Source of the DNA: Chloroflexota bacterium
GTDB lineage: Bacteria; Chloroflexota; Anaerolineae; Anaerolineales; UBA11579
Assembly (NCBI GenBank): GCA_009391835.1
Contig: QWJF01000011.1
Location: 1-48,173 of the forward strand
Reading direction: 5' to 3'
DNA: 48,173 bases
Below, piece by piece: positions 5,069 through 22,037 of this stretch (position 1 is the stretch's first letter; every line of letters starts with the position of its first letter). The notes beneath the pieces were generated by a model. That model made no database searches. It saw nothing but the letters and a program-made list of their open reading frames with translations, and was not told the DNA's origin. Both the position numbers and the translations under genes were made by a program.

Positions 5069-5090
5069 ATTATGCCAGGAGCCTGCAAAC

Positions 5091-5120
5091 AAAAAAGGGC
5101 TGCATGTGCAGCCCTTTTTT
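5091..5120. terminator. bidirectional intrinsic terminator
   Basis: AAAAAAGGGCTGC (5091-5103), a four-base loop, then GCAGCCCTTTTTT (5108-5120). It separates nnr from the convergent YtxH gene. Confidence 0.93.
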
Positions 5121-5134
5121 GTTTGGGTGGATGT

Positions 5135-16360: not shown

Positions 16361-17596
16361 ATGACAGAGAAAATCGTGATTACCGGCACTGGAACGGTCA
16401 ATGCCCTGGGCCACAGCGTCCAGGAAAGCTGGGAAAAGGCCTTGAATGGCGTATCTGGAATTGGCCCGATCACTCTTTTTGACGACAGCGAATTCCCCGT
16501 GCATGTGGCCTGTGAAGTCAAGAATTTTGAACCCGACAAGTTTTTGGAGGCGCGCGAAGTTCGGCGCCGCGATCGCTACCAACTGCTAGGGGCGATGGCT
16601 GCGCAGGAAGCGATGGCGCAATCCGGGCTGGAGATCACCGAAGAAAACGCGCCGCGCGTGGGGACTGTGATCTCGGCTGCGATTGGCGGGATTACTGCGA
16701 TGGAGCAGGGTATTTTGGACATCAATCGGGACGGCCCGCGCCGCGCCAGCCCTTTTCTTATTCCGATGATGATGCCCAATGGGGCGGCCGGATTGGCAGG
16801 CATTGACCACGGCGCCAAAGGCCCGGCTTTGTCCGTGGCTTCGGCCTGTGCTTCCGGCCAGGATGGCATCGGCGTGGCTTGGATGATGTTGCGCGCCGGC
16901 ATGTTGGACGCAGTGATCGCGGGTGCTGCCGAGGCAACCATCACTCAAATTGCAGTGGCGGCGTTTGATCGCATGGGCGCCATGTCTCGCCGCAGTGTGG
17001 ACGAGGGCACGCCCAGCCCCTTCGACAAAAACCGAGATGGCCTGGTCATTGGCGAGGGCGCCGGCGTCTTGATCCTCGAAACCGAAAGTCATGCCAAAGC
17101 GCGCGGCGCAGAGATTCTGGCCGAGCTGGCCGGCTACGGGTCCTCGGCGGATGCTTATCACATTACCGCGCCCCACGATCAGGGTGTTGGCGGGGCGCAG
17201 GCGATAAAGATGGCTATGGATCAAGCGGAAATGTCGCTCGACGCTGTGGGCTATATCAATGCCCACGGCACCGGTACACAGCTCAACGATCTTTCCGAGA
17301 CGCGCGCGATTAAGAGCGTGTTTGGCGAAAAGGCCTATGATGTGGCCATTTCCTCGACGAAATCAATGACCGGACATATGATGGGTGCCACGGGCGCATT
17401 TGAAACCATCATGTGCGTCCAAGCGGTGCGCAACAACCTGATCCCGCCCACGATTAATTACGTGGAAGTTGATCCGGAATGCGATCTGGATTATGTGCCC
17501 AATGAAGCGCGCGAAGTGGAAGTGAACGCGACCCTCACCAACGCGTTCGGCTTTGGCGGCCACAACGCGGTGATTGCAGTGCGCAAGTATGGTTGA
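16361..17596 (+). CDS. fabF: 3-oxoacyl-ACP synthase II FabF
   Basis: FabF elongates acyl-ACP with malonyl-ACP. The 411-residue protein has the thiolase-fold triad Cys163 (SVASACASGQDG), His302 (NAHGTGTQLND) and His339 (KSMTGHMMGATGAFE), and ends NAFGFGGHNAVIAVRKY. It is preceded by GAGGAG and follows the threonine-synthase-like gene by 22 bases. The usual acpP partner is not beside it. It is followed 88 bases later by rnc. Confidence 0.96.
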   Translation: MTEKIVITGTGTVNALGHSVQESWEKALNGVSGIGPITLFDDSEFPVHVACEVKNFEPDKFLEAREVRRRDRYQLLGAMAAQEAMAQSGLEITEENAPRVGTVISAAIGGITAMEQGILDINRDGPRRASPFLIPMMMPNGAAGLAGIDHGAKGPALSVASACASGQDGIGVAWMMLRAGMLDAVIAGAAEATITQIAVAAFDRMGAMSRRSVDEGTPSPFDKNRDGLVIGEGAGVLILETESHAKARGAEILAELAGYGSSADAYHITAPHDQGVGGAQAIKMAMDQAEMSLDAVGYINAHGTGTQLNDLSETRAIKSVFGEKAYDVAISSTKSMTGHMMGATGAFETIMCVQAVRNNLIPPTINYVEVDPECDLDYVPNEAREVEVNATLTNAFGFGGHNAVIAVRKYG

Positions 17597-17616
17597 TTCT
17601 ATTTTCAAATTTGACC

Positions 17617-17673
17617 GGAACTAACGGAACGCCAGCCACTCGAAATTCGGGTGGTTAGCGCTCCCTGAGTTCC
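17617..17673 (+). promoter_or_regulatory. long imperfect hairpin before rnc (candidate RNase III substrate)
   Basis: The segment is symmetrical around position 17645. Bases 17617-17643 pair with 17647-17673, giving 23 pairs (two G-U) and four single mismatches, with a loop of about three bases. The outer pairs are GGAACT/AGTTCC, then GGA/TCC, CGC/GCG and CCAC/GTGG. No T run follows, so it is not a terminator. It ends one base before AGGAGG (17674-17679... the rnc ribosome-binding site begins at 17675 within it). Long stems in rnc leaders are cut by RNase III in other bacteria, lowering rnc expression. That function here is an inference. Confidence 0.75.
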
Positions 17674-17684
17674 AGGAGGCATCA

Positions 17685-18416
17685 ATGCTTTCTGTGGAAG
17701 ACTCTGGGTTGGAAACTCCCCAGGCATTTGCAAAGCGCCTGGCTTTACCTGTGGACGACGTGCTGTTGCTCAGCCGCGCGCTCACCCACCGTTCCTACCT
17801 GAACGAAAATCCCGAAGCTTTGGAAGACAATGAACGCCTGGAATTCCTGGGCGATGCCGTCCTCGATTTTGTGGTGGGCGCCTGGTTGTATCGGCACTTC
17901 CCCGAAATGTCGGAAGGGGAAATGACGCGTTTGCGCGCCGCATTGGTGCGCACGGAGCAATTGGGTGATTTCGCGTTACAGATTGAACTGGGCCGTGCCT
18001 TGCGCTTGGGCCACGGGGAGGAAGAGAGTGGTGGTCGCTCCCGGCCCGCCATGTTGTGCGCCGCCTTTGAGGCGGTGATTGGTGCGCTCTATTTGGACGC
18101 CGGTGTGGGCGCAGTCGAAACTTTCGTCAACCCCATGCTGGATGAAGCCACCGCCGAAATCAGCACGGCCCACGGCGACCGCGATCCGAAGAGTCTGCTG
18201 CAGGAATGGGTGCAGGCGCGCGGCGAGCCTACGCCAATCTACGAGATTGTGGCGGAAAGCGGCCCGGATCATGATAAATTCTTTGAAGTTGAAGTGACTG
18301 TAGGCGGAAAGTCACTGGCGCGCGGCGAAGGTCGCAACAAGCAGGCGGCCAGCAAGGTAGCTGCAAGCACTGCACTTCAACATTTGAACGCCAAGGAGAT
18401 GGCCGACTCTGTGTAG
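17685..18416 (+). CDS. rnc: ribonuclease III
   Basis: RNase III cleaves double-stranded RNA, including rRNA precursors. The 243-residue protein has the signature NERLEFLGDAVLDFVVG (residues 49-65) with catalytic acidic residues, a second acidic helix AAFEAVIGALYLDAGV, and a C-terminal dsRNA-binding domain (about 165-240, GRNKQAASKVAASTALQHL). The ATG at 17685 follows AGGAGGCATCA. A 57-nt hairpin lies directly upstream. It is followed without a gap by smc, a conserved rnc-smc order. Confidence 0.97.
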   Translation: MLSVEDSGLETPQAFAKRLALPVDDVLLLSRALTHRSYLNENPEALEDNERLEFLGDAVLDFVVGAWLYRHFPEMSEGEMTRLRAALVRTEQLGDFALQIELGRALRLGHGEEESGGRSRPAMLCAAFEAVIGALYLDAGVGAVETFVNPMLDEATAEISTAHGDRDPKSLLQEWVQARGEPTPIYEIVAESGPDHDKFFEVEVTVGGKSLARGEGRNKQAASKVAASTALQHLNAKEMADSV

Positions 18417-18431
18417 TTGGTGAGCAAACCA

Positions 18432-21400
18432 GTGAACAATCTTCGTCTCACATCCCTCGAACTGAATGGATACAAAACCTTTGCCAGCTCGACCCGCTTT
18501 GAATTTGCCGGACCGGTCACGGCTGTGGTTGGCCCCAATGGTTCCGGGAAATCCAATATTGCGGATGCCCTGCGCTGGGTGCTTGGGGAGCAATCCTACA
18601 GCCTTTTGCGCGGTCGTAAAACCGAGGACATGATCTTTTCGGGCTCCGAAAAGCGCCCGCGTGCCGGCATGGCTTCCGCCACAGTAACCTTCGACAATAG
18701 CGAAGGTTGGCTGCCGATTGATTTCTCCGAAGTTTCGATTACGCGTCGCGCCTATCGCGATGGCCAGAACGAATATTTGATTAACCAGCAAAAAGTGCGT
18801 TTGCGGGATGTCAACGAATTGCTGTCTCAATCGGCACTGGCCGAACGCACCTATACCGTGATTGGTCAGGGCCTTGTTGATACGGCGCTCACGCTGAGCT
18901 CAGACGAGCGCCGAAAGCTTTTTGAGGAAGCTGCCGGAATCGGCTTATATCGCAATCGCAAAGAGCAAGCTGAGCGACGGTTGGATGCTACCCGGCGCAA
19001 TCTTGAGCGCGTGGCCGACATCATGGCCGAACTCAAGCCGCGCCTGCGCAGCCTGGAACGCCAGGCTCAACGGGCCACAGAATACGCTACGTTGCGCGCG
19101 GACCTGCGCGAAAGCCTGCGAGCCTGGTATGGTTTTCAATGGCATCACGCTCAGAGAGGACTCAAGGCTGTGCGTGAAGAGGCCATTGCGCGAGAGGAAA
19201 ATCTGGGCCTGGCCCGGCAAAACCAACGCGAGTTGAATAACGAGTTGGCGCAGTTGCGCAACCAGGCGCAGGAGTTACGCGTTGAATTGAACAACTGGCA
19301 TCGCCGCCTTTCCGAATTGCACGCCGGGCGCGAAAGTTCCAGCCGGGAGTTAGCAGTGGCCAACGAACGCCAACGCGCCCTGGCCGAGCGACGGCTGGCT
19401 TTGGGGGAGGAGCGCCAACGCTTGGAAGCTGAATTGGGCGGGTTGCGTGTGCGCCTGGAGACCGTGGAAGCCGAAAAGAAACGCCTGGAGGCAGAAACGG
19501 CTGATTCGCAATCTCGGCTGAGTGAAGCCCAGAAGACTCTTGCAGAGCACATTCAAATGCAACAGGACAGTGAGGCACAGAATCGCGCTGTACGCGATCA
19601 GCTTGCTGAAACGCAGGGCCAGTTGGTTACCCTCGAGGCGCAACGCAACGAAACCCTGGCGCGCCAGGGGCGTGATCAAAACGAACTGATCGAACTTGAA
19701 AAAATGCTGGCAGATATCGCCGAGCAAATCAAGATTGCTGATCAAGATGGCGTTGCGCAAAATACTGACGTGGCTGAGCGCGAGGAAGCCTTGGCTAAAT
19801 TTAATCGGGATCTTGAAAAACAAGAATCTCGGGTCAGCGAGATGCTGGCTACCCGCCAGGAAATGGAAACAAAGTACGCCGAATTGCTTAGCCGGCAAGC
19901 TCGCCTTGCGGCTGAAATCAAAGGACTTGAGGAGGCCGATGTGGCGGCGGCGGGTTTTGCGGATGGCGCCAAGCGCTTGTTGGAAGCTGCACGAGCCAAA
20001 CGATTAAAACTTGCGCCTGGCACGCTGGGGCGCGAATTGACTGTTCCGGCCAAGCTTGAGGCGGCCATAGCTGCCGCACTGGGCGCCTATATGGACGCTG
20101 TGTTGGTTCAAGCAGGTGGATCCCCAGATCAGGTGCTCGAGGTGCTCGAGCAGGACGATTCTTCGGCTGCTGTGCTGCCCTTAGCGGGGCTTTCTCCCTC
20201 CCAGGCGTTGGCTTCCCAAAATGGGAAGGGTGTGCTGGGTGTGGCTGCTGAATTGGTGCAGGCGCCGGCTGAATTGGCGCAAGCGGTTGAATTGCTGTTG
20301 GGACAGGTGTTGGTCGTCGAAGATCGCCGCGTTGCCCAGCGCGTGATTGTCGATTTGCCGGCTCAGGCGCGCGTGGTCACACTTCGTGGTGAATTGTTCC
20401 ACCGCGGCGGGCAATTTGAGGTGCGCTCGTCGAAGGCCGCAGCACCATTGGCCCGGCCGCGCCAGGCGCGTGAACTTCGGGAGCAGCTCTCCAAAGTGGA
20501 ACAAGAGCTGGCCTCCTTCGAGGAGAAGCGCTCAGCCCTCGAAAAGGAGCTTGTTTCCAGCCAGGAGAAGCAGCAAGCGTTGCGCAGCCAGGCTGAGGCG
20601 GCAGCCACTGAGGCGGAGGTGGCGCGCCGAGCTCAGCAATCTTCCAGACTGGATAGCGAACAGATGCTGCGCCAACTAGATTGGTTCAAATCCCAACAGC
20701 GCAACCTGACCCGGCAAATTGAACAGGCAACGGAAGCCTTTGAGGTGTTTGATCGTCAGGAAGAAACGTTCGGCACACGCATCCGTGAGCTACAGCAGCG
20801 TATTGAAATTCAAGCCGGCGCAACGACCGAATTGCCCCTAGACGAACATCGCGCCCAGGTGGCGCATTGGGAAATGCGGTTGGCAGTTAGCCAGCGTGCT
20901 TTGCAAGAAGTGCAGCGCCGCTACGAAGAGGGACAGGCCCAGATCACCCAGGCCCAGGAGCAGCTTGCCGCCCAGGAACAGCGGCGCGCCGAATTGGAGC
21001 AGCAAGAAGCCGAAATTGAAACCCAAAAGTTGCAGTTTGGCGCTTCAGAAGGCGAGGTGAGCGAGGAATTAGTCGATATCCAGGCTAGGATTTCCCCCGC
21101 CGAAGAGCAACTTACCCGTACAGATGTCCAATTGCAATCCTTGCTTCCCGCTGAAGCGGAAGCCCAGAAATCCCTGAGCCAGGCGGAACGCAATCATACG
21201 CAGGCGCAGATTGCGCTGGCGCGCCAGCAAGAGAGCCTTGCTACCCTGCGCCAACGAATTGAAGATGATTTCGGCCTAGTGGCCTTTGAATACGACGACA
21301 CCGTCTCGGGCCCCACGCCCCTGCCGCTGGGCGACCTGGTTGAAAAATTGCCTGTGTTAGAGGAATTGGATCCCGAATTGGAGAACACGCTGAAAGAACA

Positions 21401-22037
21401 GCGCGCCCAGTTGCGCCGCCTCGGCTCGGTAAATCCCGAAGCGCAGCAGGAATATGTCTCTGTTAAAGACCGCTTTGAGGACATGCAGGCCCAGGTGGAT
21501 GATCTTGAAACCGCGGAGAGGGATCTGAAGGAAGTGATCACTGAATTGGAAGTGCTCATGGATCGTGAATTCCGAATCACGTTTGATTTGGTGGCGGCGG
21601 AGTTTCGCGTGATCTTTGAGCGATTGTTCGGAGGTGGCGCGGCGCGGCTGCTACTCACCGAGGAAGGCGAAATGGCCGAATCAGGCATTGATATTGAAGC
21701 CCGCTTGCCAGGAAAGCGGGCTCAGCGGCTGGCGTTACTCTCGGGCGGGGAACGCAGCCTGACCGCCGCCGCTTTGGTATTCGCGCTGCTGAAAGCTTCG
21801 CCCACGCCATTTTGCGTGATGGACGAAGTGGATGCGATGCTGGACGAGGCCAACGTGGGCCGCTTCACTGAATTGCTCGATGAGCTGAGCAAAACTACAC
21901 AATTCGTGCTCATCACGCACAACCGCAACACGGTACAGGTGGCAGACGTCATATATGGAATCACGATGGGCCGGGACACAGCCAGCCAGGTGATCAGCCT
22001 CAAATTGGATGAAGTGGATGAACGTTATTCAACTTGA
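18432..22037 (+). CDS. smc: chromosome segregation protein SMC
   Basis: SMC forms the ATPase ring of condensin-like complexes. From GTG at 18432 the product has 1201 residues, starting NNLRLTSLELNGYKTFA. Upstream TTG (18417) and GTG (18420) codons are alternatives, but GGTGA lies eight bases before 18432. The N-terminal Walker A is GPNGSGKSN. Two long coiled coils (about 165-490 and 660-1000, rich in Glu, Gln, Arg and Leu) flank a hinge around 500-640. The C-terminal part has the ABC signature LLSGGERSLTAAAL and Walker B FCVMDEVDAMLDEANV. The gene directly follows rnc. ScpA and ScpB are not in the window. Confidence 0.97.
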   Translation: MNNLRLTSLELNGYKTFASSTRFEFAGPVTAVVGPNGSGKSNIADALRWVLGEQSYSLLRGRKTEDMIFSGSEKRPRAGMASATVTFDNSEGWLPIDFSEVSITRRAYRDGQNEYLINQQKVRLRDVNELLSQSALAERTYTVIGQGLVDTALTLSSDERRKLFEEAAGIGLYRNRKEQAERRLDATRRNLERVADIMAELKPRLRSLERQAQRATEYATLRADLRESLRAWYGFQWHHAQRGLKAVREEAIAREENLGLARQNQRELNNELAQLRNQAQELRVELNNWHRRLSELHAGRESSSRELAVANERQRALAERRLALGEERQRLEAELGGLRVRLETVEAEKKRLEAETADSQSRLSEAQKTLAEHIQMQQDSEAQNRAVRDQLAETQGQLVTLEAQRNETLARQGRDQNELIELEKMLADIAEQIKIADQDGVAQNTDVAEREEALAKFNRDLEKQESRVSEMLATRQEMETKYAELLSRQARLAAEIKGLEEADVAAAGFADGAKRLLEAARAKRLKLAPGTLGRELTVPAKLEAAIAAALGAYMDAVLVQAGGSPDQVLEVLEQDDSSAAVLPLAGLSPSQALASQNGKGVLGVAAELVQAPAELAQAVELLLGQVLVVEDRRVAQRVIVDLPAQARVVTLRGELFHRGGQFEVRSSKAAAPLARPRQARELREQLSKVEQELASFEEKRSALEKELVSSQEKQQALRSQAEAAATEAEVARRAQQSSRLDSEQMLRQLDWFKSQQRNLTRQIEQATEAFEVFDRQEETFGTRIRELQQRIEIQAGATTELPLDEHRAQVAHWEMRLAVSQRALQEVQRRYEEGQAQITQAQEQLAAQEQRRAELEQQEAEIETQKLQFGASEGEVSEELVDIQARISPAEEQLTRTDVQLQSLLPAEAEAQKSLSQAERNHTQAQIALARQQESLATLRQRIEDDFGLVAFEYDDTVSGPTPLPLGDLVEKLPVLEELDPELENTLKEQRAQLRRLGSVNPEAQQEYVSVKDRFEDMQAQVDDLETAERDLKEVITELEVLMDREFRITFDLVAAEFRVIFERLFGGGAARLLLTEEGEMAESGIDIEARLPGKRAQRLALLSGGERSLTAAALVFALLKASPTPFCVMDEVDAMLDEANVGRFTELLDELSKTTQFVLITHNRNTVQVADVIYGITMGRDTASQVISLKLDEVDERYST

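Follow-up and report, generated by a model that had tools for sequence, protein, structure and literature searches.

Does the gene for RNase III (rnc) in this Chloroflexota bacterium carry, in its own leader, a site through which the enzyme might control its own amount? The question is raised by a hairpin of 57 nt (17617-17673) in the window, i.e., the whole stretch of 48,173 nucleotides that was analyzed, which ends where the Shine-Dalgarno sequence (SD) of rnc begins; the rnc ATG is at 17685 (Table 1). Sequence and folding confirm the hairpin as it had originally been predicted, with 23 of the 27 facing positions of the two arms able to pair, two of them as G-U, and AGGAGG directly adjacent. 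The stem is not perfect; the minimum free energy structure of 17590-17700 consists of 6 bp, a 3 × 3 loop, 3 bp, a 1 × 1 loop, 3 bp, another 1 × 1 loop, 10 bp, and an AAA loop; the 22 pairs of this structure plus the central A-U of the 3 × 3 loop, which is able to pair, make up the 23 of 27. With -44.3 kcal/mol, these 111 nt fold more stably than their dinucleotide shuffles (-27.8 ± 3.5 kcal/mol, z = -4.67), none of 200 being as good. Hairpins were ranked over the window plus 400 kb of sampled sequence, and no gapless hairpin in the window scores higher than the rnc leader, although its lead is narrow (45 versus 44 for the next). Due to this margin the argument from the single sequence is moderate, and it is the comparative evidence that settles the reality of the hairpin. 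The second-best hairpin of the window, scoring nearly as high, is situated at 5086-5125.

Table 1. Features in and around the rnc leader, in coordinates of the window.
Feature	Position	Strand	Remarks
fabF, beta-ketoacyl-ACP synthase	16361..17596	+	Pfam PF00109/PF02801
Weak -10-like hexamer TATTTT	17600..17605	+	4/6; 11 nt before hairpin
rnc leader hairpin, 5' arm	17617..17643	+	GGAACUAACGGAACGCCAGCCACUCGA
rnc leader hairpin, 3' arm	17647..17673	+	contains CUCCCUGAGUUC
Shine-Dalgarno AGGAGG	17674..17679	+	flush with stem foot
rnc, RNase III, RIIID + dsRBD, 243 aa	17685..18416	+	Pfam PF14622, PF00636, PF00035; PDB RNase III matches
smc	18417..22037	+	Pfam PF02463, PF06470

RNase III homologs are encoded in 56 of 61 related genomes, and in family f1 the hairpin is found in every genome with an rnc match. 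In an alignment of 24 leaders the arms are ungapped and the apical loops vary in length. In this alignment 91% of the cells are paired and 12 of 24 pairs show double changes, compared to 6.3 ± 1.4 in shuffled alignments (0 of 500 as good) and 4-6 with a slid partner; in a set of 80 leaders 90.2% of the pair cells form, 16 of 24 pairs show compensatory double changes (0 of 500 shuffles), and 165 cells with double changes stand against 51.5 ± 6.5 after shuffling, the shuffles of both sets being uncorrected for relatedness. The check originally proposed, whether leaders of homologous genes keep the stem with covarying pairs, thus comes out strongly positive. As judged from the alignments, the hairpin qualifies as a covarying cis-regulatory RNA, its pairs being kept through two-sided changes beyond what shuffled and slid controls give.

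A covariance model (R1) built from the 24 rnc leaders was run on 301 genomes from the order, of which 150 match, and on a phylum sample of 301, in which 17 genomes match, all 17 belonging to the same order; R1 matches are missing from half of the order's genomes and from most of the class. Of the R1 matches, 97 could be placed relative to a listed rnc; every one directly precedes the gene on the same strand, at a distance of 5-77 nt (median 33 nt to the start of the protein match), and genomes with an rnc-linked match have no second good site. R1 matches on the opposite strand as well, because the element is nearly palindromic. Matches away from rnc in other genomes (G148, G295, G012, and others) are hairpins or chance matches; the 1-3.5 kb that were read contain no RNase III gene, and those viewed as sequence are palindromes or resemble coding sequence. 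One member of the class (G148) possesses, away from rnc, almost perfect palindromes, each some 60 nt long and with a CCTACGGG-like center (L114, 1293-1353; L115, 1419-1478), which are perhaps terminators or mobile palindromic elements. Another genome (G024) has two RNase III genes and the leader hairpin only at the intact one; the second RNase III-like gene (L106) contains one in-frame TGA. In G021, a seemingly very long reading frame for rnc could not be confirmed.

A control that does not depend on the model compares the 150 nt upstream of rnc with those of other genes in the sampled stretches, at a hairpin score of at least 36. Within the family, 23 of 23 rnc leaders reach this score versus 5 of 129 control genes, a set which includes rnc itself once, among its 5 positives (Fisher p = 1e-22). 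The corresponding numbers are 25 of 43 versus 6 of 88 for the rest of the order (p = 3e-10) and 22 of 99 versus 11 of 150 for the rest of the class (p = 8e-4). That such hairpins occur upstream of some other genes, as in the family control, and that the hairpin follows fabF might speak for a fabF terminator, a repeat element, or mere chance. We give practically no credence to this explanation, which is refuted by the covariation and by the persistence of the hairpin at rnc when the upstream gene changes. An intrinsic terminator was rejected, as had been anticipated, because the stem is followed by AGGAGGCATCA without a T run and is absent from the terminator scan; a repeat element was rejected because the genome holds one copy of the hairpin.

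Some families outside the order have other long stems at this place. Leaders L173, L204, L189, L211, and L159 (from G204, G185, G165, G115, and G142) share one directly before rnc, with CUUCCCUGUG...CACAGGGAAGUUGAUCAG as its outer part, which suggests that another lineage of the class has a second kind of rnc leader element. Further long hairpins, unrelated in sequence, reach close to the start of rnc in L098 (G026, where the hairpin is nearly perfect), L202 (G118), L180 (G297), and L148 (G066); their arms measure 27-32 nt. Outside the order, the leaders of G234 and G161 resemble distant relatives of the rnc hairpin.

In leaders L005, L012, and L022-L024, a gene other than fabF lies upstream and the hairpin still precedes rnc; fabF is no constant partner of the hairpin among relatives. 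A coupling of fabF, rnc, and smc expression, which had been proposed for this hairpin, is not supported, in view of these leaders and of a -10-like box that most relatives have shortly before the hairpin. Such a hexamer (at least 5 of 6 positions, no more than 70 nt upstream) is present in 68 of 88 leaders, compared to 27.9 ± 3.8 after shuffling, at a median of 19 nt upstream of the stem, which makes it probable that a dedicated rnc mRNA begins not far before the hairpin. Better boxes (TACAAT, TAAAAT, or TATAAT) fill in most relatives the zone in which the window has its weak one. The window's own rnc promoter is uncertain, and with so weak a box transcription there may also come from fabF. 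The start codon of smc follows immediately after the rnc stop codon, and smc would be on the rnc transcript.

As a long double-stranded RNA is situated beside the rnc start, is found only at rnc, and is kept by compensatory change, negative autoregulation is the most economical account. We consider it likely that the hairpin serves RNase III as an autoregulatory operator, working like rncO of E. coli. Following the precedents from E. coli, Staphylococcus aureus, and Streptomyces, RNase III would bind and cut the leader stem of its own mRNA. The intact stem would protect the rnc mRNA, and after the cut one might expect faster decay, with the 5'-to-3' nuclease RNase J and RNase Y degrading the RNA. 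The output of rnc would then fall, such that the enzyme would sense its own amount and turn itself down. The operator reading rests on structure, covariation, linkage to rnc, the lack of a second site, the upstream box, and RNase J/Y; the incomplete spread of R1 matches through order and class and the weak box of the window weigh against it. RNase J and RNase Y are both present in the genome and no RNase E/G was found in its 83%-complete assembly, so RNase J would probably clear the cut mRNA, a task that falls to RNase E in E. coli.

The RNase III of this genome is 76% identical to that of an Anaerolineaceae MAG, its closest named relative, which points to the class Anaerolineae. Where an active-site Asp is usual, three residues ahead of the last catalytic Glu, it has an Ala; the two bacterial enzymes aligned first have Asp at this position. 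Most of the Anaerolineae RNases III read have Ala, Asn, Gly, Ser, or Cys there, and Asp is absent from this position in all family f1 sequences read. Judging by these residues, catalysis could be altered, and binding without efficient cutting is conceivable. RNase III sitting on a stem that abuts the SD might repress translation by binding only, with the missing Asp of most enzymes of the clade slowing cleavage. This is quite improbable, however, as the remaining catalytic acids (the NERLEFLGD motif and the later Glu) are retained, Asp is present in some hairpin-bearing genomes (G035, G205), and this Asp is described for the E. coli structure as not coordinating Mg directly (PMC9291653).

The two halves of the stem are conserved in different ways. 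In the upper stem, the sequence is almost wholly replaced between relatives and pairing is kept; conservation as a helix only is what one would expect of a dsRNA substrate. The lower stem keeps sequence as well as pairing (GAAC/GUUC, G11-C58, C14-G55, and G15-C54); in alignment columns, pairs 2-67, 3-66, 11-58, and 23-46 are invariant and pairs 4-65, 5-64, 14-55, 15-54, and 18-51 nearly so. This sequence conservation exceeds the needs of a generic dsRNA substrate and counts against the operator reading. We do not claim that the invariant pairs are two-fold symmetric contacts of an RNase III dimer, since only two invariant G positions fit. The invariant pairs of the lower stem suggest that something reads the sequence, as would be the case if the leader element served another ligand or protein in the manner of ribosomal-protein leaders or riboswitches, and not RNase III. 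We regard such an element as very unlikely: the hairpin is tied strictly to rnc and to no other gene, it forms one unbranched helix whose apical loop varies in length and sequence, its upper stem is kept only as a helix, and no Rfam family matches.

Where columns are unpaired, conservation is higher in the 3' arm than opposite them in the 5' arm (0.78 versus 0.14 bits at 13/56, 1.05 versus 0.53 at 7/62, and 1.33 versus 0.99 at 9/60), and the 3' strand is thus under some added constraint. Conservation of CUCCCUGAGUUC in this arm exceeds pairing needs; it is partly complementary to the SD, and the arm also holds CUCCC, a complement of the SD. In a translational switch, the intact long hairpin would leave the SD free and, once the 5' arm is cut off, the freed 3' arm would mask it, CUCCC UGAGUUC of the released arm pairing with GGGAGG of the SD. 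Such a switch, which would be a special form of the autoregulatory operator, appears rather unlikely, and it is improbable that a single cut would open the mRNA to RNase J and, through an anti-Shine-Dalgarno built into the 3' arm, also stop translation. Besides the more conserved 3' columns, the helices of each arm with its own SD are better than those of arms swapped among species (p = 0.002; 0.017-0.03 without GAAGG-type arms), although this test disregards phylogeny, and one genus combines the SD GGAAGG with the arm UCCUUC. In contrast, in-silico cuts do not lower the accessibility of the SD (mean 0.40 for the full leader and 0.43-0.50 after cutting), and arms in shuffled order pair almost equally well with it.

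For 17590-17700 there is no match to Rfam rncO up to E = 10, and no Rfam family matches at its gathering score in the window or in 20 relatives; sub-threshold matches (microRNA precursors, a plastid element, and two bacterial sRNAs) were dismissed as generic hairpin similarity. As far as tested, the expectation of an example independent of E. coli holds. The open-access full-text literature contained no description of an rnc leader element or of RNase III autoregulation in Chloroflexota, subscription papers being mostly outside this search. There are few bacteria for which RNase III has been described to regulate itself, with differing sites, and this leader element, well supported computationally and absent from Rfam, is a candidate site of RNase III self-control across a Chloroflexota order. 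Its many natural variants, with a variable upper and an invariant lower stem, constitute an evolutionary data set on the features by which RNase III reads a natural substrate, and the other long stems at the same place in the class make a repeated evolution of rnc leader stems testable.

Control of its own mRNA by RNase III, as proposed here, is known from S. aureus and Streptomyces (PMC3386247; PMC10126417). In these bacteria, however, the enzyme cuts within the rnc coding region (PMC3386247; PMC8708148), whereas the stem studied here is in the leader. A more distant analogy is provided by the 5' UTR hairpins of DGCR8 in the Microprocessor, where an enzyme of the RNase III type keeps its own machinery in check by cutting (PMC2736397); those hairpins are eukaryotic and unrelated in sequence, and the likeness is one of analogy only. 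The closest counterpart is rncO, the operator in the 5' UTR of E. coli rnc (Bardwell 1989 and Matsunaga 1996, as cited in PMC3997798 and PMC8708148), in which RNase III cuts a 5' UTR stem of its own mRNA (PMC3386247; PMC8708148). In both systems the 5' leader of rnc forms a structured stem-loop, through which the enzyme is expected to destabilize its own message, and the Chloroflexota element would thus work like rncO. The stems themselves are unrelated, with no Rfam match between them, and gene order is rnc-era in the E. coli system versus rnc-smc here. In addition, the stem in Chloroflexota is flush with the SD, and decay would likely involve RNase J/Y rather than RNase E.
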